Shown here: positions 7,272-59,290 of the stretch, piece after piece
How positions within the stretch are numbered: the first letter of the stretch is position 1
Layout: each line of letters begins with the position of its first letter
Origin: Phlebiopsis flavidoalba
Lineage: Eukaryota; Basidiomycota; Agaricomycetes; Polyporales; Phanerochaetaceae
Direction: 5' to 3'
Length of the DNA stretch: 59,290 nucleotides
Assembly: GCA_035772785.1 (NCBI GenBank)
Contig: JAOCPU010000092.1
Location: 1 to 59,290 of the forward strand
Position numbers and translations under genes: made by a program
The notes under the pieces: model-generated
The model's database searches: none
The model's input: the letters and a program-made list of their open reading frames with translations, nothing else
What the model was told of the DNA's origin: nothing

Positions 7272-8642
7272 TTCATCGTGATACCCCCAGATTACCCATT
7301 TAAATTTAAGAATAGTAAATCTATTTACAATATTGAAGGCTTTAATTAAAAGTGTTACTGTTAAGCTTCTCCCCCATTCCTTCGGCTCCTAAGGGAATAA
7401 ACAAAGGGATGTATAATATTATACGTTTTGGTACCAGTTTCTAAGTTAATTTAGATGATATTATTTTATCAGGAGTTATTACATAAGGTTTAGTTCCTAC
7501 CATTAACCCATTGTGATCATAAAGTATTTGTCGTTTATTTTCCGTAGGGATTAATTCGTAAGTCTGGTTAACAAGGTTAATTGTAGAGTCAGAAATATCT
7601 CTAAATGATTTAACTTGGTTTAATACTAGGGATTTATCTTTATGTAGTAAAGATTTAAGGTCATTGAAGTTAATGTCAGCTTTATGACTTAATCCTTTGA
7701 CTTTAACAATCTCAGTCCCATCCTCCAATATAAGTCCGTAGACTTTTGGTGCCAGGAATACTCCTTCTTTAACTTTATATTCTAATTTAAATTTACCAAT
7801 TTCTTTGTTATTAACCATGAAGTCTGGAAGTGGCTTATTTAAAATTAAGCTATCAGTATCCATGTAATAAACTTTTGTACCTGTTTCAACACAATGTTTA
7901 ATTGTAACCCCCATGTTCACTCTCGATACACCCGCAGTTTCTGAAGCCGACGAAATTGAACCTTTGAAGTTTTTCATAGCCTCATCATGTTTAAACGGAT
8001 TTAAATAAGTTGCAATAGATTTAATATCAGTTAACTCTGTAACTGAACTTACTTCCACATCTTTTCTTTGGATTAACTTAGTTATCTCTGCTAATGTTAA
8101 TATTGCTGTGGTTTCTAATTTATAATCCTGGCCCATTTTACCATAAAGTGAATTAAGCAACAATTTGGCAATAAAATATCTTGGGTTAGTTTTGGGTGTA
8201 TTACATTTCTTCCCCTAGGACTCGTAGAAATGTGAGATAAAATCATTGAATACATATTCTCTGTTAAATAAATAACCTCTTAATATTTTAAATTTGTAGC
8301 CGAAGTTATCCATAGCGTTATAGATTTCTGTAGATGAGTATACATCAGTCCACTGCCCTAACGGGCTTACAGTTCTGAAACCGTTGTCAGTTTGTACCCT
8401 TGTTTGTAATACTGGGTGATCAAGGTTGTCTGGAGTTGTTACCTCTACTTACTCCCTTAGGAACAAGAACCCATAAGGTCTATTCATAGGATCTTTAGGT
8501 TAGGTTCAAATGTAAAGTTTTTGATTGAATGAATAGAGTTTATATCACCTTCGAAATAGATAGGATTACCAACCGGCATTAAAGAAAGCATAGAGTGTGG
8601 GTAAAGAGAATTAACATCATAATAGTATAAATCATGACCATG

Positions 8643-8652
8643 TCCTAGGGGA
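8643..8652 (-). repeat. 10-nt GC element in dpo copy A, near Pol A
   Basis: On - the coding strand reads ATTCCT, then TCCCCTAGGA, then CATGG. Without the 10 nt the protein reads VYIPHGHDLYYYDVNSLYP, matching the VYIPHN of type 3 polymerases. With it the frame shifts by +1. The same insert occurs at the same place in copy G (48983-48992). The insert lies between codons. Confidence 0.8.
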
Positions 8653-8758
8653 AGGAATATAAACATCCACATGTCCACCAGTATACGATTGTTTGATAAA
8701 GTTATATGGTTCCCCAGTAATAATGGGTAATTTAACCTCAGGTTTATAGTAATTAGTG

Positions 8759-8768
8759 TCCTAGGGGA
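8759..8768 (-). repeat. 10-nt GC element in dpo copy A, upstream site
   Basis: On - the coding strand reads TTCCT, TCCCCTAGGA, CACTAATTAC. Removal gives LALKSFLTNYYKPEV in one frame with the sequence on both sides. Copy G carries the identical insert (48867-48876). Here the insert falls after the second base of a codon. Confidence 0.8.
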
Positions 8769-9019
8769 AGGAAAGATTTTAATGCTAAGCTGCTTGTAGT
8801 CGGGGTATTTTTAAGAGATACACCTAATGTGCTTGTAACTTCCTCACTAAATTTAGTTAATATTTGATGAAGAACTTTACAGTCTTGTAAACAGTATTTT
8901 TATAGTCTCATCTTTAAGACTCCAGTTTTTACCTTTATATGATTTACAATATGATTTATATTCATTAATATCTATTCCATCAAAGAAATTAAAGGCAGGT
9001 ACTGATCCTACGTAATCTG

Positions 9020-9029
9020 TCCTAGGGGA
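9020..9029 (-). repeat. 10-nt GC element in dpo copy A, absent from copy G
   Basis: The coding strand reads ACTCCCT, TCCCCTAGGA, CAGATTAC. Removal gives NTPSDYVGSVPAF, aligning with NPLDYVGDIPAF of copy G at 48610-48650, which has no insert. The element falls after the first base of a codon, and reading straight through meets TAG inside it. This filled and empty pair defines the insert length as 10. Confidence 0.85.
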
Positions 9030-10139
9030 AGGGAGTATTTACATCATTAACGAATAGGTATGGAAATGTACCTTTTTGATCAACTCCGAATCCTTTAGCC
9101 AATGATTTCAAAGAACCTTGTATTAACAGTAATGAGTCCCTAAATTTAATTTTAAAAGTTCTTGGTTTAGATATACTAATCTCAATGAAATCGCTTTCTC
9201 TTCGGATCATGTCTAATGTATATTTTATGATTATCCGAGTACATAGATAGAAATTTTAATAAGAATATTGAGTCAAATTTAGAGAAATTGTGAGCGTAGA
9301 CGATGTATCCATCGTATTTATAGAAATCACCTTTTTTTAGTAAAGATTAATTTAATAGCTGCAAGTAGCATTGCCCCAACAGTTTTATGGTCTGATAAGT
9401 AGAAACTGAATTTATTTCTACCATCAAATACACAGATACAATAAGGAACCATTTTATTATCGATAGTTCTAGTCTCGATATCCCAAGTTAGGAATTTATC
9501 GAATTTAGTTTTAGTGGGATGTGATTTCATTAAGAATTTGAAGTCTTTACTCTCAGTTTTATGTGTAACTACACTATCTATGAATTTGTAAGTCATTTTG
9601 TTAATCTCTCTAGTGAAATTAACGTATGAACCTTTATCTGAAATGTCCTTGAATTCAAGAAGGATGTTATCATCGTTATCGAACTCGGATATTCTTACTA
9701 TGTTATATCCTTCGAACATCTGTATCTGATAAAGGAATTGATCATCATCTTTAGTAAATACAATTATAAGATTATTAGAGTCATGGCTTATAACTTTACC
9801 CCAAGTAATTACATTCATAGTATTTGGTAGATCGTAACCGAATATTTTAGTCGTAGGAAGAGTATATTTGTCTTGTGGTTCATGGATAATTGTTTCTTCG
9901 TTTAGTAGTTCATCTTGAGATATTAATTTGTATTTGAAATGGATGTTTACTAGTTCTCCGGATGAGTAGTCGTTACTTTTGAATGATAGGAAAGAGTTCA
10001 TTGTTCTAATAAATCTTTGTAAGTCAGAACTTGTAACTTTAGAAGCTTTGGATAATGATTTCATTGCTCCACCTTCGTATTCCTTCCATCCCATAGGAAC
10101 TAAGGCGATAGGCGATGGACTACTATTAATAAGGCGAAG

Positions 10140-11740
10140 AATTTATTGTTTAAACCTGATAATATTAAATTATTAAACGATTTTATCAAGTATTCAAAAC
10201 AAGATACTTTATGCTTACTTAAAGCACTACAAACAGCTTCCCTTAGGACCAAGGTGCAATATTATAATGATTATAAAGTTGATATTACTAATTGTTTATC
10301 TGCTAGTAACATGGCTATGAAAATATATAGAACCAACTTTATGACCATTCCAATACCAATTCTACGAGATTCAGAAGATAGATTCATTAGAGATAGTTAT
10401 TGTTCCTAAGGGAGTGGTGGTGCTACGGATATATACTCATGTGTGGTTAAATTACTACATTATATTGATGTGAATAGTTTATACCCATTTTCTATGCTTA
10501 AACCTATGCCTTTGGCTTTACTCGAAATTATTAAAAATCCTAAAAAACTAGATTTAAATAACTTCTTTGGGTTCTTGTTCCTAAGGGAGTAAGTAGAAGT
10601 TTACTTACCGAAGGGAACGAAAAGACCTATGTTACCACTTAGACACGATGGTAAAACTATATTCCCGACTGGTACATGGGTTGCTACATATTTCAGTGAG
10701 GAACTTAAAGCTGTACTAGATTTAAACTTAGGCTATCAATTTAATATTATCGAAGCTCATAGATATAGTAAAGGTGATATATTTACTAAATTTGTAAACC
10801 ATTTCTTCGAAATTAAACGAAATAGTACTGGTTCCCAAAAATTCCTAAGTAAACTATGTCTGAATAGCCTGTACGGGGGATGTTTGGGAGACGACAAGAT
10901 GTATCTGAGGTTAAAGTTGTGAATACTGATACTTTAATCGCTTTAAGCGCAAGTAGAGTTATTAATAATATAACACCTTTAAGTAATGATAAATATCTAA
11001 TAAGTGTAAGCACTAACATTAACACTGAGTTACTAACTGAACTTAACTCATATATCCTTAGTTCCTAAGGATCCTAAGGGTGTGGAAGAGAAAGTAATTA
11101 TACTAGTGTTAACACACCTATTAATTCTAATGTGGCCATTGCATCTGCTGTTACAAGTTACGGTCGAATATTAATGATGAAGTATAAAATACTTGATTGT
11201 GTGGTTTTTATAGTGATACGGATTCTTTATTTACTACGGATTTAACTCCGTTTACACATTTAATTGGAGATGAGTTGGGCCAATTTAAAAATGAAATGGA
11301 AGGTTTATCTATTAATAATATTATTGATAGAGCTATGTTCTTGGGAATTAAACAATATGGCTTTCAATACACTGATATGTCGGGGAACTTGGTATGTAAA
11401 TCCGTATTTGCAGGGGTCAAAAGAAATACACTGTCTTTTGAACAATTAATATCTCTGTTTAATGGTGGTAGTGTGAGAATACTTCATAAAGATAGATTTA
11501 TTAGATCTATGACTAATTTCAATATTAAAATTAAAGATATGGAAAGTATTGTAAAAATCAATAGTGACAAAGAGTTAGTTGATAATGAATACTTACCTAT
11601 CAATGTACAGTTGGCTGACTATGGCTGTTCGATCAAGCCATATCTAAACAATATTAATAACACCTACACTAAAATTATTAAATTACAATCAGAAACCCCC
11701 AGATTATCCCGATTACTCGTAATATGAATAACGAGAACAC
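10140..11740 (+). pseudogene. dpo: family B DNA polymerase, type 2, copy B, 5'-truncated
   Basis: The copy starts inside the gene at Exo III (YSKQDTLCLLKAL) and lacks Exo I and II. It continues through the SYxGGATDIY motif (10390-10430), Pol A (YIDVNSLYPFSM, about 10460), Pol B (KLCLNSLYG, about 10852) and Pol C (SDTDSLF, about 11212). It ends near 11727. Breaks include in-frame stops within GC elements at 10403-10414 and 10580-10591, both shared with copy E, and a 43-bp cluster at 11054-11096. Small indels occur near 10875 and 11200. The junction with inverted copy A lies at a GC cluster. It is probably not functional. Confidence 0.75.
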
Positions 11741-19404: not shown

Positions 19405-20155
19405 ATGAATTTTTCTATTTTTAAAATTATATTTAATGATGCACCACAACCTTGGCAAATAGGTTTCCAAGATAGTGCAGCACCCGGATTTACAGGTATT
19501 GTAGAATTACATAATACAATCTTTTTCTATTTAGTAGTTATCTCTGTTGGAGTTTTTTGGGTATTAGGTTCAATTATCTATTACTACAATTCTAACAAAT
19601 CTCCTATCGTACATAAATATCTTAACCACGGTACATTAATCGAATTGATATGGACTATCACACCTGCTTTAGTTTTAATTGCTATCGCTTTCCCTTCATT
19701 TAGATTACTTTATTTATTAGATGAAGTAATTAGCCCTACAATCACAATCAAAGTAGTAGGACACCAATGGTATTGGTCTTACGAATACAGTGATTATGTA
19801 AATGAAAGTGGAGAATCAATCGAATTTGATAGTTATATGATACCTGAATCAGATTTAGAATTAGGTCAATTTAGATTATTAGATGTGGATAACAAAAGTT
19901 ATTGTACCTGTAGATACTCACATTAGATTAATAGTTACTGGTGCGGATGTTATTCATTCTTGGGCTGTACCTTCATTAGGTATTAAAATAGATGCAGTTC
20001 CAGGTAGATTAAACCAAACATCTATATTAGCTGAAAGAACAGGTGTGTTCTATGGTCAATGCTCTGAAATTTGTGGAGTTTGGCACGGATTCATGCCTAT
20101 TGCAGTAGAAGCTGTTTCTGTTCAAGATTACTTAGCTTGGATTAACTCTAATTAA
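19405..20155 (+). CDS. cox2: cytochrome c oxidase subunit 2, one frameshift
   Basis: This subunit accepts electrons from cytochrome c through its CuA centre. The N-terminal frame has two membrane helices and the conserved [15 protein letters not shown] (about 117-131). At about 19890 an extra A (GATAACAAAAGTT) shifts the frame. The second frame, to 20155, carries the CuA ligands in [16 protein letters not shown]. Total length about 250 residues is normal. The shift is in an A run within a conserved segment ([20 protein letters not shown]), so an assembly error is likely. Confidence 0.95.
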
Positions 20156-20566: not shown

Positions 20567-21581
20567 ATGATGAATAATAATTTAATTTTAGTTATATTAA
20601 ATACATTAATTAATTTAATTGATGTGTTACTAGTATTGTTACCTGTATTACTTTCTGTTGCTTTCATGACTATTATTGAAAGAAAACAATTAGCAGCCCA
20701 TCAAAGAAGAGTAGGTCCTAATACTGTAGGTTATTACGGTATTCTTCAACCCTTCAGTGATGCTCTTAAACTTATTCTTAAAGAAACAGTTATACCCTCT
20801 CAATCTAATAAAGTTTTATTTTACTTAGCTCCTATTTTTACTTTAATTTTTAGTTTATTAGGTTGGGGAATAATACCTTTTGGTGAAGGTTTAACTCTTT
20901 TTGATTTCCCATTAGGTATTTTATATACTTTAGCTCTATCTTCTTTAGGTGTTTATGGTATTTTATTTGCTGGTTGGTCCGCTAATTCTAAATATGCTTT
21001 TAGGATCACTAAGATCTACTGCTGCTATGATTAGTTATGAATTAATTTTAAGTTCTGCTATTTTAATTGTAATTTTATTAGCTGGTTCATTTAATTTTAC
21101 AAGTATTATTGAAAGTCAACAAGCTATTTGGTTCGTAGTACCTTTATTACCTGTGTTTATATTTTACTTTATATCTATATTAGCTGAAACTTCTAGAACT
21201 CCTTTTGATCTACAAGAAGCTGAATCTGAACTAGTTGCTGGATTCTTCACTGAACATAGTTCAATTATATTCGTGTTCTTTTTTTTAGCCGAATATAGTT
21301 CAATTGTGCTATTTAGTGCGATAACTGCTATTTTATTTTTTGGTGGATATAATATGCCTCAACTGTTTGTTAATGATACTTTCATTAACTTACAAGCTAT
21401 TGTACTAGGTTTAAAAACTTGTGTATTCTGTTTTATGTTTGTATGGTTTAGAGCAACATTACCAAGATTAAGATATGATCAATTAATTGAGTTCTGTTGG
21501 CTAAATTTACTTCCTGTTGCAGTTGCATTTATTATACTTGTACCTTGTATTTTAATAGCATTCGACATAGCTCCTTACTAA
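20567..21581 (+). CDS. nad1: NADH dehydrogenase subunit 1, one frameshift
   Basis: This complex I subunit helps form the quinone-binding site. Frame one has TIIERKQLAAHQRRVGPNTV (about 29-48) and runs to about 21000, where the run after AATATGC is short by two T and the frame changes. Frame two continues with GSLRSTAAMISYELILSSAI and the conserved LAETSRTPFDLQEAESELVA, ending PCILIAFDIAPY at 21581. Total length about 337 residues is normal. The indel sits in a T homopolymer and is probably an assembly error. Start ATG at 20567; another ATG follows directly (20570). Confidence 0.95.
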
Positions 21582-22490: not shown

Positions 22491-23315
22491 AATGGAATCC
22501 ATAAATAGAGAGTTTTATTACAAAAATTCCCCTTTCACTTGGTACCTGTCTCTCCTTGGCCTATTTTAGTTAGTTTTTTTCCTTGTTAAGTTTTACCCAA
22601 TCAGCAGTAATGTATATGCACGGGTATAACTACGGAGGTTTCTTTCTAACACTAGGATTTTCAATTACTACAATTGGTATGATTCTTTGGTTTAGAGATA
22701 TCATCAAAGAAGCATCCTACGAAGGTGCACACACACAAAACAAGTACAAAATGGTATAATGATAGGTTTTATATTATTTATCGTTAGTGAAGCATTTGCT
22801 TTCTTAAGTGTATTTTGGGCTTTCTTCCATTCAGCCTTATCACCAGCTATTGAAATAGGAGGATGCTGGCCACCTCAAGGTATAACAGCTTTAAATCCAT
22901 TTGCTATACCATTATTAAAAATACTATATTACTATTAAGTAGTGGTGCTTTTATCACTTATGCTCACCATGCTTTATTAGCTGGAGATAGAAAAGGTGGT
23001 GGTATAGAAGGTACACTAGTAACAATATGGTTAGCTATACTATTCACAGCTTTACAATATTATGAATATGTAGAAGCACCATTCACTATCACAGATTCAG
23101 TCTTTGGATCCGCATTCTTTGCTTCAACAGGATTACATGGATTACATGTTATAGTAGGAACTACATTTATACTTGTAGGTTTAATTAGAATGATTAACTA
23201 TCATTTTTCAACTACACATCATTTAGGATTCGAAGCAGCCATATTATATTGGCACTTTGTTGATGTGGTATGGTTATTTTTATTTATCGCAGTATATTAC
23301 TGGGGTACTAATTAG
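22491..23315 (+). CDS. cox3: cytochrome c oxidase subunit 3, four frameshifts
   Basis: This is the third core subunit of complex IV. Conserved pieces appear in successive frames: SPWPILVS (about 22550), VMYMHGYNYGGFFLTLGF (22606-22665), IKEASYEGAHT, SEAFAFLSVFWAFFHSALSP (22788-22845), GGCWPPQGI and, from 22930 on, LLSSGAFITYAHHALLAG to YWHFVDVVWLFLFIAVYYWG at 23309. The four shifts are near 22533 (missing C), 22577 (T run), 22738 (A run) and 22918 (A run). All are one or two bases and three lie in homopolymers, consistent with consensus error. Nothing else suggests inactivity. Confidence 0.92.
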
Positions 23316-23382: not shown

Positions 23383-23660
23383 ATGAATCTCTCCTTATTT
23401 TTATTTTTAATTGGAATATTAGGATTTATTTTAAATAGAAAAAAAAAAATATTATCTTAATGATCATCGCTATTGAAATAATGCTATTAGCTGTTACATT
23501 ATTAGTTTTAATTAGTTCATTCAGTTTTGATGACGGTGTAGGACAAACATTTAGTATATTCATTATATCAATTGCAGGTGCAGAGTCAGTTATAGGTTTA
23601 AGTATTCTTGTAGCTTTTTATAGATTAAGAGGAAACATTTCACTTAGAACAACTTCATAA
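23383..23660 (+). CDS. nad4L: NADH dehydrogenase subunit 4L, one frameshift
   Basis: This is a small three-helix subunit of complex I. ATG at 23383 starts NLSLFLFLIGILGFILNRK. An 11-base A run near 23439-23449 breaks the frame, which resumes as ILMIIAIEIMLLAVTLLVLI, with the conserved glutamate, and AGAESVIGLSILVAFYRLRG. The last base of its stop TAA is the first base of the nad5 ATG, the usual fungal nad4L-nad5 overlap. The shift is probably an assembly error. Confidence 0.92.
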
Positions 23661-25645
23661 TGTATATTTCAATTTTAATTTTACCTTTATTAGGTTCACT
23701 TGTCTCAGGTTTACTGGGAAGAAAAATAGGTGTAACAGGTGCACACATAATAACTTGTACATGTTTAATACTATCTTCAATATTAGCTAGTGTAGCTTAT
23801 TATGAAGTAGGTATCTGCGGATCACCCGTCTCAATACATTTAGTTAATTGGGTAGATTCTGAATTTATGAGTATATCATGGGAATTCTTATTTGATCAAT
23901 TAACTGTGTCTATGTTTATTCCTGTACTTTACATATCTTCATTAATTCATATTTTCTCAACTGATTATATGTCACAAGATCCTCACAACCAAAGATTTTT
24001 CTCACATATTTATCTTTATTCACTTTCTTTATGTTATTATTAGTATCTGGTGCTAATTATTTTGTTATGTTTGTAGGTTGGGAAGGTATTGGAGTAGTTT
24101 CTTATTTATTAATTAACTTCTGGTTCACAAGATTACAAGCAAATAAAGCAGCTATACTAGCTTTAACTATGAATAGAGTAGGTGATATGGGTCTAAGTAT
24201 TGGATTTTTTGCTATTTTTGCCTTATTTGGTTCAATAGATTATGCAACTGTATTTAGTTTAGGTTCATTTATGAATGAAACAGCTATAACTATTATAGGT
24301 TTATTACTATTAACTGGAGCTATGGCTAAATCAGCTCAAATCCCATTACATAGCTGGCTACCTGGTTCAATGGAAGGTCCAACACCTGTTTCAGCTTTAA
24401 TCCATGCAGCTACATTGGTTACTGCAGGACTGTATCTATTAGTTAGATCATCTCCAATATTAGAATACAGTAGTACTGCATTATTAGTTATAACACTTGT
24501 AGGGGCTTCAACAGCCTTTTTTGCAGCTACATGTGGTCTAGTACAAAATGATTTAAAAAAAGAATAATAGCATTCAGTACTATATCTCAATTAGGATATA
24601 TGGTGATGGCTGTAGGTCTTTCACAATATAACGTAGCTTTAATGCACGTTGTTAACCATGCTTTCTTTAAAGCCTTATTATTCTTAGGAGCAGGTGCAGT
24701 AATCCATAGTTTTGCTGATCAACAAGATGTAAGAAAAATGGGAGGTTTAATCAACTTCTTACCATTTACATATACAGCGATGTTAGTTGGTTCACTATCA
24801 TTGTTAGCAACACCATGGTTAACTGGATTCTATAGTAAAGATTTAATCATAGAATTAGCCTATGCTCAATATAGCTTTAGTGGTACTTATGCTTATATTT
24901 TAGGAAGTATTACTGCAGGTTTAACTGCTTTTTATTCATTTAGATTAATTTCATTAGTATTCTTAACTGCACCTAATGGTCCTAAAACATCTTATTTAAA
25001 TTCACATGAAGCAAACTTAGCCGTTGTAATACCATTGTTTATATTAGCTTTATTTAGTATTTTCTTTGGTTACTTCGCTTCAGATATTTTTGTAGGTGTA
25101 GGTTCCGATTTCTTTGGTAATTCATTATTTATTCACCCTAATAACGTAAATTTAATAGAAGCTGAATTTAGTTTACCTTTATTAATTAAATTAACTCCAG
25201 CTATCTTAAGTTTATTGGGTGCATCAATTGCTGTGTACTTGTATCACTATCAACCTAATTTTATAATCGATGTGTCAAATAGAGAAATATATACATTCTT
25301 AAATGGTAAATATCTATTCGATGTTGTCTATAATAATTATATTATTGGTGCTGGGTTAAAACTTGGTTATATTATTTCTAAAGTTTTAGATAGAGGTGTA
25401 ATTGAACTTGTGGGACCTTACGGACTAAGTAATGTGTTAAGTAAAACAGGTACAAACATTAGTAAATTAGATACAGGAGTAATTACTACTTATTCACTTA
25501 TTACTTTACTTTAGCTCTATTATCTTTATTATTCTTAGTGTTCGCTCCTATCTTACTGGAAACTTCTATATTTAATTGGCTTGGTTCTGAAATTAGATTA
25601 TTTATCATATATCTAGCTGCTTTATGTTTCGCGCTTTCAAATTAA
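23660..25645 (+). CDS. nad5: NADH dehydrogenase subunit 5, three frameshifts
   Basis: This is the largest antiporter-like subunit of complex I. Frame one covers YISILILPLLGSLVSG to TDYMSQDPHNQRFFS. An extra CA at about 24003 shifts to frame two (MLLLVSGANYFVMFVGWEGI to CGLVQNDLK). An A run near 24553-24560 shifts to frame three (AFSTISQLGYMVMAVGLSQY onward), and a missing T near 25512 shifts the last 40 residues, ending FALSN with TAA 25643-25645. Length about 660 residues is normal. All conserved blocks are present, including HAATLVTAGLYLLVR. Confidence 0.94.
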
Positions 25646-27711: not shown

Positions 27712-27787
27712 GGTAGAATTAGTTCAATCGGGTAGAATGACGTTTTTGTGGCAACGATGAAAAGAGTTCGAATCTCTTATTTTACCC
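27712..27787 (+). tRNA. trnH: tRNA-His (GTG)
   Basis: GGTAGAA pairs with TTTTACC, and the anticodon GTG lies in TTGTGGC. The T run before it makes the loop one base too long, probably a homopolymer error. Confidence 0.78.
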
Positions 27788-28030: not shown

Positions 28031-30821
28031 CTTTCATTCGTACCCCCTCTGACTTATCGTATGAAGTAAACTATCATGGTGAATCTCCTGGTGTAACACC
28101 TATTACTGTTGTAGCTGAGGAAATATCTACAGATAAACGAATGCTTACCGTCTATTTAAATAATGTTCATAGAATCGAGGGGAAATACGCCTACGAACAG
28201 ATATTTAAAATACTTACTACGAATAAAGTAATTAAAAAATTCGCTAAACATAAAATTGTATTTATTACAGGTAGATACAATGATGACATTGAAGCTGCAT
28301 TACACCCTAATATCTTAATTCATAACAGAACTACTTTCAGACAATAGTCCTAGGGGAAGGAATCAAATTGTTAACCATGTGTCCGAACAATATATATCAG
28401 GTGATCCAGGTTACTCACACAAAGTGTCGTGTTAACATATAAAGTTGTGATATGGAATGCTGACCACGCCTTAAATAGTAAGTTAAAAATAACTAAAGTA
28501 GCTTCTGGTAAATTAAAATCACAGTTTACACCTGCTAATACTCGACAGTATCACTCTGGATCCGTTGCATCCATAACAATTAACCCCTTTACAGGCTTTC
28601 ACACACCTTCTTTATTATTTAGTTCTATTAAATCTAAATTAATAATGAACAGTTATAACAGAGTTTCTAATTTATTTGTACACACCAAAAGAAAAAGTAA
28701 ATTGTTGAAAGGACATATAAATCCTTTAACTAGAAGAACAGATATTAAGTCAGATAAAGATAAAATCAATGGCTTTTTTAAATACATTCAGTACTTTAGA
28801 CTTGGAGACCATGGACTGGAACGGCGAACAAATGCCAATATCTATATCTATATCAAGTATTCGAGCTAATAAAAGAGTTGTAAGTGATTTCTTTATCATT
28901 GATAGTACTAAATTGGTTTACGAATCTAATGGTTTACCTAGTGCTGTAACTTTAAATCTAGCTATCGATAATATGTGGACTGAATTCTTTGATTTCCTTG
29001 CAAGTAAAAGACATGCTAGTTATAGAACAATCTTTGTACATAATTTAGGTTCATTTGATGGGTTGTTCATATTCAAATACTTATGTAAGTTAAATAAGTC
29101 GGAGACCCCGACAATTATGCTGGATGGTTCAAATAACTTTTTATTAAAATTAGTACTTACATAGATCCTGACTTTAATGATCCCCGAAAAAAAATTAGTT
29201 TAAATAGAATTAACTTTATTGATTCTTGCCGAATATTTCCTATATCTCTCGATAAACTTTGCGAAATGTTTGGGTAAAAGTCAGGCTTATGACAGTGGAT
29301 TCAACAAATTCAGCTTATTTAGTAAACGAAAAATATTAAATTATTAAATAACTTTATTAAATATTCAAAACAAGATACTTTATGCTTACTTAAAGCATTG
29401 AGTGTAGCTCAAGAACAATACTATAACGACTATAAAGTTGATATTACTAATTGTTTATCTGCAAGTAATATGGCTATGAAAATATACAGATCTAATTTTA
29501 TGTCTGTTCCAATACCAATATTGAAAGATAGTGAAGATAGATTCGTTAGAAACTCATATTGTTCCTAAGGGAGTGGCGGGGCTACGGACATCTATAAAGC
29601 AATTGTAGAGTGTTTACATTACATCGATGTTAATAGTTTATACCCTTATGCCATGTTGAAATCCATGCCCTTGGCTTTATTAGAGGTGATTAAAAACCCT
29701 ATAGATTTTGACTTAAATAACTTCTTTGGTTTTATGTTCCTAAGGGAGTAAGTAGAGGTTTACTGCCCTGAGACTTGCAAAAGACCTATGTTACCACTAA
29801 AATATGAAGGTAAAACTATTTATCCTACGGGTACTTGGACGGGTACCTATTTCTCTGAGGAGTTGAAAGCGGTGTGTGCATTAAATTTAGGCTATCAGTT
29901 TAATATACTAGAGGCTCATAGATACAGTAGTGGTAATATCTTTGATAAGTTTATCAGTCATTTTTACGAAATTAAAAAAACTAGCACTGGTTCTAAAAAA
30001 TTCCTAAGTAATTGTGTCTGAATAGCCTGTACGGGATGTTCGGTAGACAGCAGGAGGTTAATGATGTTGTTGTAGTCTCTGGTAAAACATTACATAGCTT
30101 ATCTTTGACTAGAATCATTAATACTTTCAGTAAAGTTGATGATGATTTGTACTTAGTAAGTATGTCCAATAATATTAATACAGATCTATTAAAAGAGTTG
30201 AATGTGACTCTATCGAGTGAATACGTATCTCCGCAAATGTCAGTGAATACGAATGTAGCTATCGCTTCAGCAGTGACTGCGTACGGAAGGATATTAATGA
30301 TGCAATATAAAGTGTTAGATTGTGTTGTTTATAGTGATACGGATTCTTTATTTACTACAGACTTAAAACCTTTTACTCATCTTATCGGAGATGAATTAGG
30401 AGAATTCGTTCCTAAGGATCCTAAGGGAGTAGATGAGTTAGACGGGTTGATTATAGATAATGCTATCTTTCTAGGTATTAAACAATATGGCTTTCAATAC
30501 ACTGATAAATCCGGGAAAGTGATTACTAAATCTGTGTTCGCAGGTGTCAAAAGAGATAGTTTATCTTATGATCAGTTGGTTTCTTTATTTAATGGAGGTT
30601 TTGTAAGAATAACTAATAAAGACAGATTCTTTAGATCTATGACTAATTTCACTATTAAAATCAAAGATGTGGAAAGTATAGTTAGAGTTAATAGTGACAA
30701 AGAATTAGTTGATAATGAATACTTACCTAAACATGTCCAGTTATTGGATAGGGGCTCCAATATTAAACCTTATTTAAATAATATTAATAACACCTACACT
30801 AAAATTATCAAATTGGTTTAA
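28031..30821 (+). pseudogene. dpo: family B DNA polymerase, type 2, copy E, near full length
   Basis: This is the most complete type 2 copy. The N-terminal part (28141-28347) contains KFAKHKIVFITGRYNDDIE. A GC element (28348-28357) follows, and a further segment leads into Exo I (FSTLDLETMDW, about 28786), Exo II (FVHNLGSFDGLFIFKYL, about 29032), Exo III (YSKQDTLCLLKAL, about 29363), SYxGGATDIY, Pol A (YIDVNSLYPYAM, about 29620), Pol B (CLNSLYGMFGR, about 30015) and Pol C (YSDTDSLFTT, about 30330). In-frame stops lie only inside elements at 29572-29583 and 29739-29750; other breaks are one-base shifts (28430, 29160-29290, 30010). Shared elements with copy B argue for a common ancestor that already had them. 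Confidence 0.78.
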
Positions 30822-30924: not shown

Positions 30925-31050
30925 GGGTGTTTTGTAAAGCAAATCTAGGCGCTTGCAATCGGGAATATTTATACAATTTATATTATTAGTGATTGGCAAT
31001 AGACCTGCGCTACTAGGTATTATCTATAAATATAATGGTCACCCTGTACT
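30925..31050 (+). repeat. plasmid tail motif, copy after dpo E
   Basis: The phrase AAAGCAAATCTAGGCGCTTG and CAATCGGG, then GACCTGCGCTACTAGGTATT and ATGGTCACCC, recurs after copy B (11780-11885) and at 55570-55675. It lies just past the polymerase gene each time and could be a transcript end or part of a plasmid terminus. Confidence 0.5.
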
Positions 31051-31083
31051 ATTCAAGACACTGACCCAGAGAATATTCAACTT

Positions 31084-31708
31084 ATGGTAAACATTGACTC
31101 CGAGGGGGAAATAATTGTTGTTATACGAAGAAATAGGTACGATCTTTCGCATGAGGATCAATATCACGGTATTGATGTAAATGTTGCTATAGCCGGATGG
31201 ATTCCGGCAGGGGGAAGGGTGTATATGGATTACCTACTTAACTATTCAGCACACAACGTGTATTATACTGATACAGATTGTTTTGTTATCGATAGACCTC
31301 TATCAGAGGTTATGATATCAGATCAAATCGGTTCATTTAAATTAGAACACGTTATTAAAAAAGCTGTATTCCTTGCCCCGAAAGTCTATGCGTATGTACT
31401 AGAGGACGGGAGAGAGGTAATTAATTAAAGTTAAAGGATTAACAGCAGAAGCATTATCAAATCATAATATCCATTTCGATGACATGGAAAAAAAACTATT
31501 AGTTAGAGATGCATCACTTGAATTAAATCAAGATAAATGGTAAAAAGATGTTATGTCCGGGACTATTGATGTTAGAAAAGTAGCATATCAGTTAAAAACT
31601 ACAGCTAACAAAAGAGACTCCTTGTACATAAATAATGTATTCACTGCTACACGACCTTTTACATATTCTGATATAATAAGAGAAGAGTCTCTTGCTAGAT
31701 CAATTTAA
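31084..31708 (+). pseudogene. dpo: family B DNA polymerase, type 3, C-terminal fragment F
   Basis: The fragment begins inside the palm domain (HGIDVNVAIAG) and has Pol C (YYTDTDCFVID, about 31260). KAVFLAPKVYAYVLEDGRE follows, then after a shift near 31427 VKGLTAEALSNHN and the C-terminus VAYQLKTTANKRDSLYINNV, ending at TAA 31706-31708. One in-frame TAA replaces a Phe codon near 31541. The exonuclease half is absent. It lies directly behind the type 2 copy E and its tail motif. Confidence 0.72.
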
Positions 31709-31862: not shown

Positions 31863-34800
31863 TTATAACCGATCCACTCGGGTTCCTTTCCCTCCCTTCC
31901 CTTCACTCCGAGTATGAACAGGGGGATTATTTAAGTGCTTTTTTGCAGCAACATATCTTGCTCTTAATTCATTCATAAAGTCTTCACCTAGATAATTAGC
32001 TGGACGATTCATAAACTTTCTTAGATTAAATTTACCTTGATCAGGTGAAGAGAAAGCATTATCAAATATTTCTTTAGGCATAGCTCTAAATCTAATATAC
32101 ATACAATTCTGACTATCTAATACATAAAAATTCTGTTTAATTAGCGAAATGCAGTGTTCTCTAAGCTCATCCTGACTTAAATTAGGGGGCAAAGGATTAT
32201 ATGTGTTAAATGATACCGTTAATAAACTTAGTCATAGTAATATCACCTTTAAATTCGGGATATGCACTCATGAATAACTCATTATTAAAATATAAGGCGT
32301 ATTTACTTCTAAATTGCATTCCCTAAGGCGATGGGTTACTGTGATACTGTGACATATATAATATTTCATCAAAGAATCTTCTGAATCTACTATATTTTAG
32401 CTCCTCCGCTTTACTTTCATCATTTACTAGTGTACTTAATTTAACAAGATACGCATCATAGTTATATGGAGCTGTATATGAGTAAGCATTGTTAAAGTAA
32501 ATGGGTCTTCGTTTATTTGACGTAGATTTTAATTGATATGCAATTTCTCTTACTCTTATTCTACCGATCTCTGAACCATTTATCTTGGTTTAGTTCCATT
32601 TGGGTATCTCTATATAGTAGAGCCTCCATATTTTCTATTGTAACAGATTTTAGAGATGAAGTAGGCAACCCTTTAATTTTAGTAATTGTCTCGCCTTTAT
32701 CGGTTACATAACTGTAAACTTATTCCGGTGCGAGGAATACAGCCCTTTTTATTACGTGCTCAAGTTTAAATAAACCTAAATCGGTACCAATAACATTCGG
32801 TCTGTCAATTACTAAACTATCCGTATCAGAATAGTATAGGTTGTACGCAGGATTGTTTTTAACATAGGACATGAATACTCTACCGCCCCCAGCAATTTGG
32901 CTGGCTATGGCAACATTTACATCAATACCATGATACATATCTTCGCTTGAATTAGTGTGAAGATTTCTTCTAACTGTGATCCATACATCATCTTCCAGTT
33001 CTAATACAAAGTATACTTTCAGAATAAGTATTTTCGTAATCCCTGAATTTAATAGCTCCGTCTTCTGTATTCTGATCGAATACATCTACTACTGCAGATT
33101 CAGATTTCATTCCGAATTTACCGTTCATTAACAGTTTTGCGATTAAATTCATGGGTGAACCACTAGGATACTCGGATCTCATTTTGAATAGATCTTCTAC
33201 ATACTCTTTGAAAATTGCCTGTGGTTTGAATAGATACCCGTTTTTGATGTAAAATCTGTATCCCAGTCTTTTCACTTCATCCATTTCAAATGAACTTATC
33301 CAACCGGACCATGTACCTAAGCCTGCTATTGTTCTGATTCCGTCTTTAGTTTTAACTTTTCGCTGTAATATTGGGTGCTGTAAATTATCGGGTGCTACTA
33401 TCTCACAATAGAAGAATCCAAATGCATCAGGGTCTACAGATCGTATGTCACCTTCAAATGCAATTGGCTTACCTACGGGCATAGGGACTTCTTTCATAAC
33501 GGAAGCGTACAAACTGTTAGCATCATATTGATACAATGTGTCAAAATTAGGATTAGTAATATCGTGTTTATGATGGTTATGAGGGATATAAACGTCTACA
33601 GCCCCACCGGTAGTATATGATTCTCTGATGTCCTCTTCGACTTTACCAGATAATTGATATATAGTATCTACCGGCATAAACTTAGATTTGTATACTCTCA
33701 TGGCTAGTGATGGTAATGTAAGAGATTTATGGATATTAACATCGAATTGGTTAAATACTAGTTCATTGAATGTAGTAAGTACTTCAAACAATGCGATACA
33801 ATCTAGTTTACAATAATTAACTGATTCCTCGATGAATGACCATGGTTTTTTAGAGTAAGTAGATAACATATCGTTGTATTCTTTGTGTGAAATGTTACCC
33901 CATAGTTTAAATGCAGGTAATCGACCTTTATACCCTATGTCGTTGAATAACACCGGAAAGTGTCCTTTTTTTTATGTTCTACATCGAATGCCTCGGCTAA
34001 TGCTCTTAAAGACATCGGTAACATTAATAAAGAATCTTTAAAGATGATTGTTCTAGGTTTAGAGTCGGGTAGTTTATATGTGAATTTGATACAAATTAGT
34101 TTCCCATTATAGATTACGGGTTCTGTTTATCGCCTTAGGGAAGAATATCTAATTTTAAGTAAATACTTAAGTAGAAATATACCATCGAAGTTAGATAAAT
34201 TATGAGCGTATACATATTTAACTTTAGGAATATTGTATAATTGATCCATAAAATCATTTACTAGTTTAAATCTCTGATTTAAGTCAGTAACGTCTACGAT
34301 TCTAGAGGAAATAAAGTGTGATGGATTATACCCGCATATTAAATAAGGTTTCATGCTATTATCTATGTGTACTGTCTCTATGTCTAGAGTCATGAATTCA
34401 TTTCCATAACTCAATGATTTATCGCTAGTTAATTTTTTGAATGGTTTAGCACTTAATTCTTTAGATCTAACGATAACTTCACCATCTCTAATGTAAAAAT
34501 ATTTTTCCCAGTTCTCTCATAAATGTGTTATCATCAATTTTAGTGTCGACCCATGTGAAATCACCTGCACCCTCGATTCTAACTTTGTTTACATCACCAT
34601 AGGCATCTACAGTGAATACTCTAGCATTATCAGAGATTATGATGTATCGAGTAAACCCGTCCATGACTTCTCTAGCTATTATAACACCATATTCGGAATG
34701 ATCCGGTAGTTTTAAGTTATTATAGTTATGTGATCCTAGTGTATATTCAGTTTGATTTAATAGTTCTCTGTTATCTTCAGCTTTACCTTCAATGACCATG

Positions 34801-35184
34801 TAAGTAAAGGTGATAGAATTACATTTCTCTACTTTGTAACTATCACTTAGAATACCTAATCTATCTAATAAATACTGAATAAAAACATCTCTATCATCAA
34901 AGTTTACTTTTCTTCCCATTCCCTAAGGAGTAGGCGATAGAGGTGCAATTGTTTTATAATCAGTGTCATCAGTATTAACTGAGCCCAAGAATCCCACTAC
35001 TCCCTTGGAACACACATCAAGTTTAAGTGGATATTGTTATTACTAGAATGTAATGACACGAATACATCCTGCCCTTCCTGTCCTTAGTTCCTATGGGAGT
35101 GAATTTAATATAAGATCTTAGCATATCAGGGGAAATATTATTATCTCCAGTTAAAGTATATGTTTTTTTGTTTAAGATTTGCAT
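31863..35184 (-). pseudogene. dpo: family B DNA polymerase, type 3, copy D, with extended C-terminal region
   Basis: Reading on -, the gene starts at ATG 35184 (MQILNKKTYTLTGDNNIS). Then come a GC cluster that breaks the N-terminal domain, the 34919-34488 part, Exo I (FMTLDIETVHI, about 34400), Exo II (YAHNLSNFDGIFLLKYL), Exo III (YCKLDCIALFEVL), Pol A (YQYDANSLYASVM), Pol B (AKLLMNGKFGMK) and Pol C (YYSDTDSLVID). The last part, to 31863, has YNYDAYLVKLSTLVNDESKA and a hydrophilic tail of about 150 residues not seen in fragment F. A 12-nt element with stop (34128-34139) and a 24-nt one shared with copy H (about 34912-34945) interrupt it. Confidence 0.78.
34128..34139 (-). repeat. 12-nt GC element in dpo copy D
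   Basis: On - the coding strand reads TATTCTTC, CCTAAGGCGATA, AACAGAACC. Removal gives RYSSTEPVIYNGKL, exactly the sequence of copy H at 51120-51150, where no insert exists (TCTTCAACGGAACC). The insert keeps the frame but creates an in-frame TAA. Confidence 0.85.
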
Positions 35185-35249: not shown

Positions 35250-35445
35250 GCACCTCAAATAATTAGTATTTTATGATTAAACATATAACATACTTCGTCC
35301 CGCTATATCTTCGATTAAGCCAATCGCATAGCCTTCAGGTTTTTCTGTTAAATAATAATTAAATGTATTTCGCGATACCCTTTTAATAATATCACGATTC
35401 AAATATATAATGGATAATATTCTTCCCCTAGGACTATGTTCTATT
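35250..35445 (-). CDS. small basic ORF upstream of dpo copy D
   Basis: A frame on - reads IEHSPRGRILSIIYLNRDI, then IKRVSRNTFNYYLTEKPEG and AGRSMLYV before a stop near 35274. The opening phrase IEHSPRGRILS recurs upstream of copies C (43370-43410) and H (52380-52420). A lysine-rich stretch precedes it. The GC element TCCCCTAGGA encodes part of it. It overlaps the end of nad3 on the same strand. A terminal protein gene is one possibility for a small ORF upstream of dpo; nothing proves it. Confidence 0.4.
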
Positions 35446-40086: not shown

Positions 40087-40978
40087 TAGTACTAAAAATG
40101 TACAATTAGAAGCGGTAAACAGAATATTAGCTGAATATGCTTCTAGTGGTAAAATTCCTTTACCATTCCCTTCCCCTAAGGATGGAGTAGTCAAGACCTG
40201 AAAGTCCACACCCATTCCCTAAGGAGCCGGTAACAGCAGTGCCCTGAGATAGTTGTAACTAGTCCCGTTAGACTCCCCGGTAAAGGCTCAAGCAGAAATC
40301 GTACTAAGCAGAGCACCTAGTCCTTTCCCTAAGGGATTTTGTTCCATCGATGATAATATCATCATAGTTGTATGGGACTGTATTACTAAAGATATTATCT
40401 TTATAAATAGCTCTTCGTTTATTGGCAGTTACTTTCCGTCCTGTCCTTAGTTCCTATGGGATGGAAGGGATATGATATGCCACTTCTTTCACAGTGATTG
40501 TACCTGATTTTACTTTAGAGAACCATTTATCCTGAGTTAAATCTAGAGTACTATTCTCAATTAATAACGATTCCATTTTATCGAATGAAAGGTTTTTAAC
40601 TTGATTACTAGTTACTCCTTTAACTTTAGTAACTTCAGTACCGTCTTTAAGCACCAGCGAATAAACTTTAGGCGCGAGGAATACAGCTTTAGAGATAGTA
40701 TGCTCTAATTTCATATAACCTAATTGATTGTTTACAAAATCCGAAGGCAATGGTTTATTAATGACAAAACTATCTGTATCTGAATAGTATAGTTTATACT
40801 GAGGTCGATAACTCATGTAAACTCTTCCGGGATAAATCCCCCTATCGCGACATTTACGTCGATACCGTGATAATCATCAGAGTGCTCAACAGTGTCTACA
40901 CTTTGTCTAATCGTTAAACAAAGTTTTTCCTCGGGGTCTGCTCCCTTGTCCTAAGGGAATAATAGAGTATAGTTTGTA

Positions 40979-41021
40979 TACTTTCTCTTCCACACCCTTA
41001 GGATCCTTAGGAACTAAGGAT
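40979..41021 (-). repeat. 43-bp GC cluster, identical to 11054-11096
   Basis: The element begins ATCCTTAGTTCCTAAGGATC on - and ends GAAGAGAAAGTA. The same 43 bp lie in the type 2 polymerase copy B on +. The two genes are only distantly related, so the cluster itself was copied. Confidence 0.85.
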
Positions 41022-42471
41022 GTAAGTGTCAAGAAAAGTCCTGAATTCGGCATCACCTTTATCACTTGATAAATTAAATGTTTCTACTATAGAAGACTCT
41101 TGTCTCTGTCCGAATTTACCGTATAAAGAATTCATTAACAGTTTTGCTATTAAATTCATTGGTGAACCACTAGGATATTCCTGTCTTAATTTATATAAAG
41201 CATCCACGTATCCTTCAAAGATTTTAGCTCTTTCAAACTTATAACCTCTGATAATTTCTATTTTGTAACCATCGTCAATCGCTTTCTCCATCTCTATTCC
41301 CTAAGGATCCTAGGGGAATGATGAGGTAATCCATCCAGTCCATGATCCTAGTCCGGCAACTGTTCTAAGTCCATCTGATGTTCTTATTTTTCGTTGTAGT
41401 AAAGGATGTTCGATGTATTTAGGACTAGTGATATCACAGTAGAAGTAACCGAAAGCTTCAGGATCTACTAATAGTATATTTCCTTCAAATGCTACTGGTC
41501 TACCTACAGGCATATTTAATGTTTTCATTATAAATGGCCATAGGCTATTAGCATCATAGAAATATAGTCTGTCAAAGCTATCAACACTAAAGTCACCTTT
41601 CGTGTGATTATGTGCTCTGTACACATCTACTGCACCTCCGGTATATGCTTGTCTAATATCTTGTTCAACTTGGCCATTTAACTGGTATATAGTGTCTTTA
41701 GGCATATACGATGATTTATATAATCTCATAGCTAAAGCAGGAAGCGTTAGAGACTTATGAATGTTGATATTGAATTGGTTAAAGAATAATTCGTTAAATT
41801 GATTAATGATCTCAAATAAAGATACACAATCTATTTTACAATATTTTGCTGCTTCTGTTTTAAAATTCCAGATACCTTGATGATTAGATTTAAGTCTTAA
41901 ATATTCATCATAACTAATATCTGTCCATAGATCAAATGAAGGGAAATCTCCGTTATAATTAATGTCAGTTAGTTTAAATGGAAAGTGTGTTTTAGGAGTA
42001 GAGACATTGAATGCATCACATAGAACTCTTAGAGCTAATGGTAACATTAAGTACGAGTCTTTAAATATTATTGTTCTGTTTTTACCTTCAAATGTGTATG
42101 TGAATCTTATTGCTATTAATTTACCGTTGTACATTACTGGGTCTACTTTAGAATCTTTGTATTGTACCAAGTAATTCAGTAATAACACCCCGTCAAATGA
42201 AGAAAGATTATGAGCGTAAACATATTTGAATCCTTAATTTGAGTAAGTCTATCAATAAAGATTTTAAACATTACATCCCTGCTGTGACTATCATATACAT
42301 CTTTGGCAAATACCTCGATATAATTATCTTTATTGTAGGCACAGGCTAAGTATGGAACAACGTTACCATTAATGTTAATTGTTTCCAGGTCCATTGTGAT
42401 GTAACTATCGGAAATCATAATTTTTTTATCTTTTTTACCTGTAGTAAATGGTTTGGCGCTTAGCTGTTTCT

Positions 42472-42481
42472 TCCCCTAGGA
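42472..42481 (-). repeat. 10-nt GC element in dpo copy C
   Basis: On - the coding strand reads GTAAGGG, TCCTAGGGGA, AGAAACAGC. Without it the protein reads VREKQLSAKPF, matching VRSKELSAKPF in copies D (about 34440-34475) and H (about 51435-51470), which lack the insert. With it the frame moves by one. The element is in the opposite orientation relative to the gene compared with those in copy A. Confidence 0.85.
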
Positions 42482-43159
42482 CCCTTACAATAATCTCATT
42501 ATCTCTAATGTATAATACATTTTTACCTAGTTCTCGTTTAAAGGTAGTATCATCTATGATAGTATCAGTCCATGTAAAGTCGGATGCTCCTTCTATTCTT
42601 ACTTTATTGTATGAATCATAGGCATCTACAGTGAATACTCTTAAGTCACTTCTTACAACATATCGTGTGAAATCATCCATTTTCTCCATAGCAATTAGCA
42701 CTCCGTACTCAGAATGGTCCGGTAATTTAATATTATTATAATTATGATTAGTCACTTGATATTCAGTTTGATTTAACAATTTTCTAGTATCATCTGCTAA
42801 TCCATCTTTAACGATGTAAGTGAATGTAACAGTTGTACAAGTTTTAATGTTATATGAATCAGATAATATACCTAGTCTATCAAGTAGGTATTGAGTGAAT
42901 ACTTCTTTATCATCAAAGTTTACTCTTCGTAAGTCTGCGATAGTTTTTATATTCTGTGTTATTATTTTTCATCATAACCTATTTTGCACATCAACATTAG
43001 ATGGATATCAGCTCCCTTAGCATGTAATGGTGTAAACACGTCATACCAGAATGATTTGATATGCGCCCTAAGGATATCTGCAGAGATGTTTGTATTAGCA
43101 GATAAAGTATATGTTTTATTTAAAATATTTTGCATAGTTATTTATATATTTCGTATCTA

Positions 43160-43410
43160 TTAACATAGATAAGTTTTACTGAATAATACTTCCAACAGTT
43201 TATTATTCGTAACCACATGGGTATTAATAATAATAATCAGCGATTCCTCATGCCCCAACATCTTCGATTTAGTAATCGTATTTGGCCTCAGCTTCGGTAA
43301 TCTTACCATTATTAAATATATCCGTAATTGATATACCCTTTTAATAATATTAATAATATCATGGTTCAAATATCTAGTGGATAATATTCTTCCCCTAGGA
43401 CTATGTTCTA
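43160..43410 (-). CDS. small basic ORF upstream of dpo copy C
   Basis: On - a Lys/Arg-rich start (KKKKRKKFK) leads into IEHSPRGRILS and an ATG-initiated frame of 69 residues (43369-43160) with ITKSKMLGHEESL. The beginning repeats at 35400-35445 and 52380-52430, always upstream of a type 3 polymerase. The spacing to the polymerase ATG is 24 bp. The remainder of the protein differs between copies. Confidence 0.4.
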
Positions 43411-43439: not shown

Positions 43440-43500
43440 TTCGTGGTATCTACGGTGTCCTAAGGGAAGCGGGCCCCTACCCTTAGGCCCTAGGTAAATA
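43440..43500 (-). repeat. GC-rich cluster with GGGCCC core
   Basis: GTCCTAAGGGAAGCGGGCCC and CTACCCTTAGGCCCTAGG occur here and at 52468-52505, beside the basic ORF upstream of polymerases C and H. The two copies form the edge of the homology shared by these plasmid blocks. Confidence 0.6.
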
Positions 43501-47400: not shown

Positions 47401-48866
47401 CTAACTAAAAACCCATCAATGAAAAACTGGTTCACTAAAACATATAACATGAACAACGATTTACTTACTAAATTTACTTTAACTACATATATAGAAACAT
47501 TCTGGAACGAAGTAATTAATCTTCAATCTGGACTAAACAATAATTCTTTGCTTTATTAATAATATTAGAGTACGAAGATGGTACACTAAAATCTCTAAGT
47601 AAAGCTTCTAAAGTAACTAGTTCTGACTTAATAAAATACATCAGAATAATGAACTCTCACTTAGCATTCAAAAGTAATGACTATTCATCCGGAGAACTAA
47701 TTAATATCCACTTTAAATATAAATTCATTCATGAACATGAACTACTAAATGATGAAAGCATAATACATGAACCTCTGGATAAATATACTCTTCCTACGAC
47801 TAAAATATATGGGTATGACCTTCCTAATACTATGAATGCTGTAACTTGGGGTAAAATAGTTAATAATAATGGTAATATAATTACTATAGATTATAACAAA
47901 AACGATGACAAATACATCTTCTCCGTGGAACTACATGATGGTTACAATTTAGTTAAACTATATCACTTTGAGGATGATGAGAATGTAATACTTGAATTCA
48001 AAGATACTTCCGACAATGGTTCCTATGTAAATTTTACTAGAGAAATCAATAATATGACCTACAAATTTGTTAATGGTTCCGTTACATTTAAAACTGAAGA
48101 TACTGACTTTAAATTCCTAAGTAAAGTTAACCAAAGTAAATCTGCTTTCACTAAGTTTATTACATGGGATATCGAGACTAGAACATTAAATGGAGTAATG
48201 ACTCCGTATGCAATATGTGTTTATGACGGAGTTCAGAGATTCGGGTTTTACCTATCCGACTTTACTAGTGTAGATGAAATGCTACTTGCAGCTATCAAAC
48301 TAATCTTTACTAAAAAAGGTGATGTTTACATCTATGACGACTATATTGTCTACGCTCATAACTTTAGTAAATTTGATTCAATATTCTTATTAAAACTATT
48401 ATCTATTTACTCTGATAAAAATAAATTTAGTTTAGATATTATCAAGAGAGATAGTGACATTATTGAAGTTACTGTGTCTAAACCTAAATCATTTAAAATA
48501 AGATTCAGAGATTCGCTACTATTGCTTAAAGGGTCACTTAAAGCCTTAGGTAAATCCTATACTAATGATAAAAAAGGTATATTCCCTTATCTATTCGTTA
48601 ACAACTCTGTAAACCCCTTAGATTACGTAGGAGATATACCTGCATTTAAATATTTTAGTAATATAACTATAATAATAATATAAATATTGTAAATCTTATA
48701 GAGGTAAAGTATGGAATCTTAAAGATGAGACTATCGAATATTGCTTACAAGACTGTATCGTGTTACATAGAGTATTGGAAAGATTCTCATATGAAATATT
48801 CAATACAGTAGGAGTTTCACTTAAAAATACCCCTACAACAAGTAGCTTAGCACTAAAAACATTCCT

Positions 48867-48876
48867 TCCCCTAGGA
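48867..48876 (+). repeat. 10-nt GC element in dpo copy G, upstream site
   Basis: The gene reads TTCCT, TCCCCTAGGA, CACTAATTAC. Removal restores LALKTFLTNYYKPEV in frame with Exo III upstream and the QSYTGGHVDVYIP motif downstream. The same insert lies in copy A. Confidence 0.85.
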
Positions 48877-48982
48877 CACTAATTACTATAAACCTGAGGT
48901 ACAGTTACCCATTATTACTGGTAAAGCTTACAACTTTATTAAACAATCGTATACTGGTGGACATGTGGATGTATATATTCCT

Positions 48983-48992
48983 TCCCCTAGGA
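48983..48992 (+). repeat. 10-nt GC element in dpo copy G, before Pol A
   Basis: The gene reads ATTCCT, TCCCCTAGGA, CATGGACAC. Removal restores VYIPHGHNLYHYDVNSLY. Two such inserts 116 bp apart, each shifting by one, leave the intervening 106 nt readable only if both are skipped. Confidence 0.85.
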
Positions 48993-50043: not shown

Positions 50044-50101
50044 TGATGATGATGATGCTGTGATCACTATTAGAAAAGATCTGTCTAATTATACAAATGA
50101 A
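50044..50101 (+). other. inverted type 3 polymerase fragment at a junction
   Basis: The + strand reads DDDAVITIRKDLSNYTNEE, homologous to EDDVWITVRRNLHTNSSED in the palm domain of copy D. In copy H, which begins directly here on the opposite strand, this segment would be the next one after KFGMKS. The sequence therefore folds back: a small inversion at the join of copies G and H. Confidence 0.6.

Positions 50102-58177: not shown

Positions 58178-59290
<1,113 letters not shown>

Follow-up and report, generated by a model that had tools for sequence, protein, structure and literature searches.

The contig studied here raises the question of how a GC-rich sequence of ten bases, TCCCCTAGGA, came to stand inside several plasmid-type DNA polymerase (dpo) genes of a fungal mitochondrial genome, and whether those genes could still work with it in place. 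The answer we consider probable is that the decamer is a MUSE-like, ultra-short, GC-rich, mobile-looking mitochondrial element within decaying plasmid polymerase genes.

The window analysed is the entire contig JAOCPU010000092.1 of Phlebiopsis flavidoalba (59,290 nucleotides), part of a 36.3 Mb assembly in 129 contigs. It carries mitochondrial rRNAs and tRNAs. The genes cox1, cox3, nad1, nad5 and nad4 were recognized by homology searches, while cox2, nad2, nad6, atp6 and rps3 were assigned by reading of the ORF list; cob, atp8, atp9, nad3 and nad4L were not located on the contig. Among the best 120 matches listed, nad4 was 80-81% identical to Lactifluus, Lactarius and Russula, and the top identity was 92%, to one protein; judged by this gene, the host would be an agaricomycete, probably close to Russulales. 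The tRNA at 27713-27787 received an anticodon call of four letters (tgtg) and is perhaps a tRNA-His with an indel.

An alignment that allows inserts of any length placed seven dpo copies on a profile of 877 columns built from 52 homologues. All seven are broken:

7456 to 10082, minus strand: copy A, matching the profile (877 columns) from column 56 to 877, with no match to the poorly conserved 5' columns
10149 to 11604, plus strand: copy B, profile from column 419
28769 to 30821, plus strand: copy C, from ORFs and profile, with a further dpo fragment at 31036-31663
32464 to 34979, minus strand: copy D, profile alignment
40349 to 43135, minus strand: copy E, profile alignment
47500 to 50037, plus strand: copy G, 3' end missing, profile to column 838
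49974 to 52058, minus strand: copy H, profile to column 685

Copies A and B meet from opposite strands at 10082-10149, at a GC element starting at 10089. The hosts would be copies of at least three mitochondrial plasmid polymerase lineages decaying inside the mitochondrial genome. In a tree with the 52 homologues, A/G and B/C lay far apart with other homologues between them; the tree holds near-full-length proteins only and candidates of limited length were searched, so that broken relatives are under-sampled in it. A dpo relative was also searched for in viral contigs, and nothing was found there.

The decamer occurs in 16 exact copies in the window, against 0.12 expected from trinucleotide composition, and with at most one mismatch there are 61 matches against a shuffle mean of 2.5. 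Thirteen of the 16 exact copies share the context CT^TCCCCTAGGA^C and are called family 1; the remaining three are followed by TCC. The family-1 decamers are the following:

8211 to 8220, plus strand: in copy A (gene on the minus strand), CT^..^C context, 9-nt gap in G versus A and 9-nt profile insert
8643 to 8652, minus strand: in copy A at phase 0, the counterpart of 48983 in G, profile and pairwise alignment, empty twin in H
8759 to 8768, minus strand: in copy A at phase 2, the counterpart of 48867 in G, from alignments, relative P0357 uninterrupted
9020 to 9029, minus strand: phase 1, filled in A but absent from G, 10-nt gap in G, where the target is changed
28348 to 28357, minus strand: in plasmid-derived DNA before copy C, exact match and context
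35424 to 35433, plus strand: upstream of copy D, in a block without differences between D, E and H, block comparison
42472 to 42481, plus strand: in copy E (gene on the minus strand), absent from D and H, phase 1, 10-nt gaps in D and H, where the targets are changed
43391 to 43400, plus strand: upstream of copy E, same block, block comparison
48867 to 48876, plus strand: in copy G, phase 2, exact match, profile and pairwise alignment
48983 to 48992, plus strand: in copy G, phase 0, exact match, profile and pairwise alignment
52400 to 52409, plus strand: upstream of copy H, same block, block comparison
53255 to 53264, minus strand: near the start of ORF 53248-54756 (plus strand), ORF list and context
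53414 to 53423, minus strand: second decamer in the same ORF, ORF list and context

Each of the six dpo positions named in the original prediction carries the exact decamer, and that list proved incomplete, a seventh dpo decamer lying at 8211 and six more in other plasmid-derived DNA. The predicted codon phases (0, 2, 1, 1, 2, 0), which we read from the frames by eye rather than by script, agree with the reading frames, so that all three phases are interrupted. ORF 53248-54756, with its two decamers near the start, encodes 502 residues and is without a Pfam match.

All 13 family-1 copies lie in DNA classed as plasmid-derived, seven in dpo copies and six elsewhere, the borders of the plasmid-derived parts having been drawn by us. 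The 13-mer CTTCCCCTAGGAC has 13 matches across the 36.3 Mb assembly, every one of them in the mitochondrial contig and none outside it; the reversed control has one. Both observations favour the MUSE-like reading. Confinement to plasmid-derived DNA has a P of 0.005 when family 1 is compared with the remaining element cores that lie in neither exons nor RNA genes. The wider element core TCCCNWAGGA occurs 69 times in the window, with two in core-exon intervals against 12.1 expected (P 0.0002); one of these is inside nad4 and may be native, and the other is at the edge of the nad2 interval. Further wider cores are in rps3 (two), rRNA (one) and tRNA regions (one). No family-1 decamer (0/13) was found in ~10.4 kb of located core exon, a count that excludes cob, atp8, atp9, nad3 and nad4L, and this sparing of core exons also seems to favour the MUSE-like reading. 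In viral contigs, 11 stretches held the decamer with its target, one match each, a count with no chance level attached.

Upstream of D, E and H the decamer sits in a block of ~40 nt that is identical in all three, while much of the upstream region has diverged. It could therefore be native to the plasmids, as part of a conserved upstream signal that was copied elsewhere. At the block itself native and inserted are not distinguishable, since the window has no decamer-free copy of it, but in dpo the decamer interrupts codons, and we regard a native origin as improbable.

The profile gives inserts of 10 nt at 9020, 8643 and 48983, an 8+2 split at 8759 and 48867, and 9 nt at 8211; at 42472 it gives an adjoining insert of 11 nt that is not placed on the decamer itself. 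The predicted length of 10 nt is borne out by pairwise DNA alignment of diverged copies, in which exactly 10 nt are missing from G relative to A at 9020, and from both D and H relative to E at 42472; the gap in G versus A at 8211 is 9 nt. The gaps at the sites filled in one copy only (10 nt at 2/3, 9 nt at 1/3) would thus support the MUSE-like reading. At these three sites (9020, 8211 and 42472; 28348, 53255 and 53414 were left out of this comparison) the homologues are without CT^C in 3/3. A relative of A, P0357 (229/302 residues identical), is uninterrupted across 9020, 8759 and 8643, and P0260, a metagenomic relative 87% identical to G, is without one 12-nt cousin of the element present in G; the elements are therefore optional. 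One natural empty site was found:

50590 to 50601, minus strand: TATATTCCT^CAT in copy H, identical over 12 nt to the target that is filled at 8643/48983, in homologous profile columns

The sequence there extends as TATATTCCT^CATAAT. Filled and empty sites thus coexist within one molecule, and the twin in H probably counts in favour of the MUSE-like reading. Target duplication at the decamers was not seen in the flanks, the pairwise gaps or the empty twin. The predicted target CT^C is present at all 13 family-1 copies, and the conserved stretch is wider than had been proposed, T-Y-C-T^C at 12/13 with CCCT^C at 9020.

The state of the host genes bears on whether they were still in use. The original prediction held that A and G had diverged to about 60% identity and stayed open elsewhere, and neither point survived: the two are 71% identical in DNA and 68% in protein, and the profile alignment reads five further frame breaks in each, G being without its 3' end as well. 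P0260 extends beyond G's end and reads in G's displaced frame ahead of the break at 49662, so an error confined to this assembly does not account for the break. The 3' truncation of G and the break in common with P0260 would favour the MUSE-like reading. Frame breaks, one or two each, are also present in five essential genes:

19405 to 20155: cox2
20567 to 21581: nad1
22565 to 23306: cox3
23660 to 25514: nad5
58214 to 59236: cox1

These amount to eight in ~8.3 kb, a count in which nad4, nad6 and atp6 were included as intact and nad2 was left out. An A or T run of at least four was present at 6/6 breaks inspected (of the eight), and an excerpt of a published PacBio mitogenome report (PMC6140425) places the Illumina-corrected indels in such A/T runs; the essential-gene breaks are probably uncorrected assembly indels. 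Nuclear HSP70 and HSP90 matches were tried as a gauge of assembly indels and rejected, being blurred by introns. Besides the elements, A and G have 10 breaks in ~5.0 kb, a rate not clearly above that of the essential genes (P 0.09), so they are perhaps less broken than they look, which would speak against the MUSE-like reading. The breaks in cox1, cox2, cox3, nad1 and nad5, suggestive as they are of uncorrected long-read indels, might lead one to regard the decamers as assembly artefacts too, but thirteen identical 10-nt inserts at one target and in either orientation are unlike homopolymer error, and we give this view next to no credence.

As predicted, two homologous sites are filled in both A and G (8643/48983 and 8759/48867). 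Where the target is kept in both members of a pair, the sites both filled and both empty number 2 and 1 for A/G, 1 and 4 for D/H, 1 and 2 for D/E, 1 and 2 for E/H, and 0 and 1 for B/C; discordance is zero within these five pairs, and H is discordant with A/G at 8643. In plasmid-like DNA TYCTC is filled at 12/112 places and TTYCTC at 9/51. At equal occupancy, the probability that independent hits fill 2/2 kept A/G targets is 0.01 for TYCTC or 0.03 for TTYCTC, which, if the copies were hit separately, would weigh against the MUSE-like reading. Conversion between copies is a partial account at most, judging by flank identity at the nine shared inserts: the fraction of all positions with a value as high was 0.02 in D/E, 0.015 in E/H, 0.08 at each of the A/G decamers, 0.13 at the 12-nt insert of A/G, 0.33 in D/H and 0.73-0.76 in B/C. 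In the tract flanked by the two shared decamers, synonymous identity is raised (26/31 comparable codons versus 261/471 elsewhere, P 0.0012), which would suit the MUSE-like reading. In the 60 bp outside each shared decamer it is not raised (10/17 and 6/12), and in a gene-wide scan the tract did not stand out (permutation P 0.62); both results would tell against that reading.

A further proposal concerns the sharing only and is compatible with the MUSE-like element, namely that A, G and the D/E/H block received their inserts one by one because they keep the target, the inserts having no common descent. It would agree with the loss of CT^C from 3/3 homologues at sites filled in one copy and with a 12-nt cousin at the GF^VEV motif of two deep lineages. 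Against it, a TYCTC occupancy of 12/112 gives a chance of ~1e-4 that 4/4 would be shared, and in H the very same 12-nt target stands unfilled. When a target profile was trained with the group of the tested site left out, the filled sites did not stand out, 53414 excepted (4th of 557), and the shared sites ranked 79th-319th of 557, also to the detriment of separate hits. We hold separate hits to be quite possible, at somewhat less than an even chance.

Substitution rates were estimated by the Nei-Gojobori method with Jukes-Cantor correction, at synonymous sites near saturation. Over 761 codons A and G gave dS 1.8, dN 0.23 and omega 0.13; the values were dS 1.7 and omega 0.15 for D/H, and dS 1.4 and omega 0.26 for B/C. 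Downstream of the inserts, where the original prediction needed a ratio away from 1, A versus G gave 0.13-0.15 in the two stretches with computable dS. A low omega there and over the whole gene would count against the MUSE-like reading. The A/G value of 0.13 is, however, an average that may predate the inserts, and if A and G were hit separately it is silent on the time after insertion. On the MUSE-like reading, most of the low omega would have been acquired before insertion and the interrupted dpo copies would be pseudogenes.

Two observations are harder to reconcile with that reading. The shared A/G decamers are identical at 20/20 bases amid silent sites near saturation, and the 35 codons between them show seven synonymous and three nonsynonymous changes (P 0.001 versus neutrality). 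If the decamers came by conversion, selection would seem to have continued afterwards, and neutral decay following conversion would not explain the changes. Either the decamers arrived separately in A and G when these had already diverged for the most part, or A and G shared them while selection on the protein continued with the inserts in place, which is the live alternative; given the state of the copies, separate late arrival is held to be the more likely.

The original prediction went further and hinted that function outlived insertion, by translational bypass or RNA removal. Extended to the 12- and 24-nt elements, this would have ribosomes hop over the inserts, or the inserts removed from the RNA, so that polymerase was still made. 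The purifying selection between the shared decamers would be the best support for this; omega 0.13 over 761 A-G codons, the lack of differences between elements amid nearly saturated silent sites, a pattern of sharing in step with the gene tree within A/G, D/H and B/C, and frame breaks in essential genes too would also fit. In that case the decamers, along with the cousins of 12 and 24 nt, would long have been carried by living mitochondrial plasmids, with polymerase made through the inserts, which would explain the identical inserts at near-saturation, an omega near 0.13 and the continued selection between shared decamers. Against bypass, the triplet before the resume point matches the take-off codon at 0/6 sites; the spared core exons of the host, the truncation of G and its break in common with P0260 likewise argue against working genes. 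We therefore consider bypass or RNA removal unlikely, as we do long carriage by living plasmids, and give these a minor share of our belief on account of the mostly synonymous changes between the shared decamers. Of the original proposal, purifying selection and shared sites are supported, and genes working with the inserts in place are not. If bypass were true, this would be a second fungal lineage recoding many inserts, in plasmid rather than host genes.

Cousins of the decamer, of 12 and 24 nt, and a GC cluster of 50 nt were met in or near the same copies. Those of 12 nt were placed as follows, the first four being one cousin with its flank, GTTCCTAAGGGAGTAAGT:

8447 to 8464, minus strand: copy A, in-frame stop at the GF^VEV motif, from the profile, P0357 without 4 residues there
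49165 to 49182: copy G, profile alignment
10577 to 10594: copy B, profile alignment
29736 to 29753: copy C, profile alignment
49807 to 49818, plus strand: a 12-nt cousin in copy G, from the profile, absent from P0260

The GF^VEV site was apparently hit repeatedly, since the cousin is in both A/G and B/C, which are far apart in the tree; such repeated hits would speak for the MUSE-like reading. The cousin at 49807 would have arrived after the break at 49662, because P0260 has the break and is without the cousin. The 12-nt cousin with its flank was searched for in viral contigs and nothing was found. D (34911-34934) and H (51913-51936) have in common, near the start of dpo, a GC insert of 24 nt that carries an in-frame stop; E is without it, and a similar element is at 16473. 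A 50-nt GC cluster upstream of dpo is the same in E (43445-43494) and H (52456-52505), with diverged outer flanks, and D is without it. Of two neighbouring similar ORFs, 55825-56082 and 55156-55497, one has an in-frame 12-nt element without a stop.

Among known systems, the ultra-short elements of Podospora come closest. Koll et al. (1996) reportedly described MUSE1 and other such mitochondrial elements there, and MUSE elements are found at rearrangement boundaries. The present decamer has their length (~10 bp against ~10-11 bp) and, like them, is dispersed in mtDNA, with many identical copies confined to it (13/13) and optional sites, as seen from the gaps in homologous copies, the empty twin in H and the cousin absent from P0260. 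In an excerpt of PMC7218506 MUSE1 has 11 bp and >100 copies, against 13 copies here of a different sequence, and one of PMC1864894 reports the undecamer at plasmid recombination junctions. In the window, the MUSE1 undecamer had 0 matches with up to two mismatches. The 13-bp GC palindrome of Heterobasidion mtDNA is likewise short, GC-rich and optional as excerpted from PMC10234125 and comes from the order that nad4 suggests to be close to the host; CCGCCGCCGGCGG had 0 matches in the window, again with up to two mismatches. Yeast mitochondrial GC clusters resemble the decamer in being GC-rich, dispersed and mobile-looking with a short target, and merged clusters occur in both; by the excerpted accounts (PMC4478555, PMC10234125) they measure 30-80 bp and have AG or ACT direct repeats, whereas the decamer has 10 nt and its flank is not repeated. 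In Magnusiomyces capitatus, bypassed nucleotide blocks also disrupt reading frames, but at 81 positions in 12/15 host protein genes according to part of PMC5009743, while here inserts in essential host genes were not found (0/13 family-1 copies in located core exon). The short insertions of Annulohypoxylon stygium mtDNA are optional as well and some lie in conserved domains of mobile genes; in the available part of PMC6140425, however, they are 12-106 bp long and most are in introns and intergenic DNA. The decamer is apparently undescribed, a statement that rests only on open-licence literature searched by topic and not by the decamer's letters.

We infer that the decamer moved into these sites. 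It would insert, in both orientations and without target duplication, at CT^C, which in all but one copy is part of T-Y-C-T^C, and A and G would have come to share it either by repeated insertion at homologous targets or by a short conversion tract. Target-primed reverse transcription has been proposed for MUSE; it and template switching are candidate routes of movement here. With its exact target, the absence of duplication and the presence of both filled and empty sites in one molecule, this element of ten bases would make the movement of ultra-short mitochondrial elements testable.
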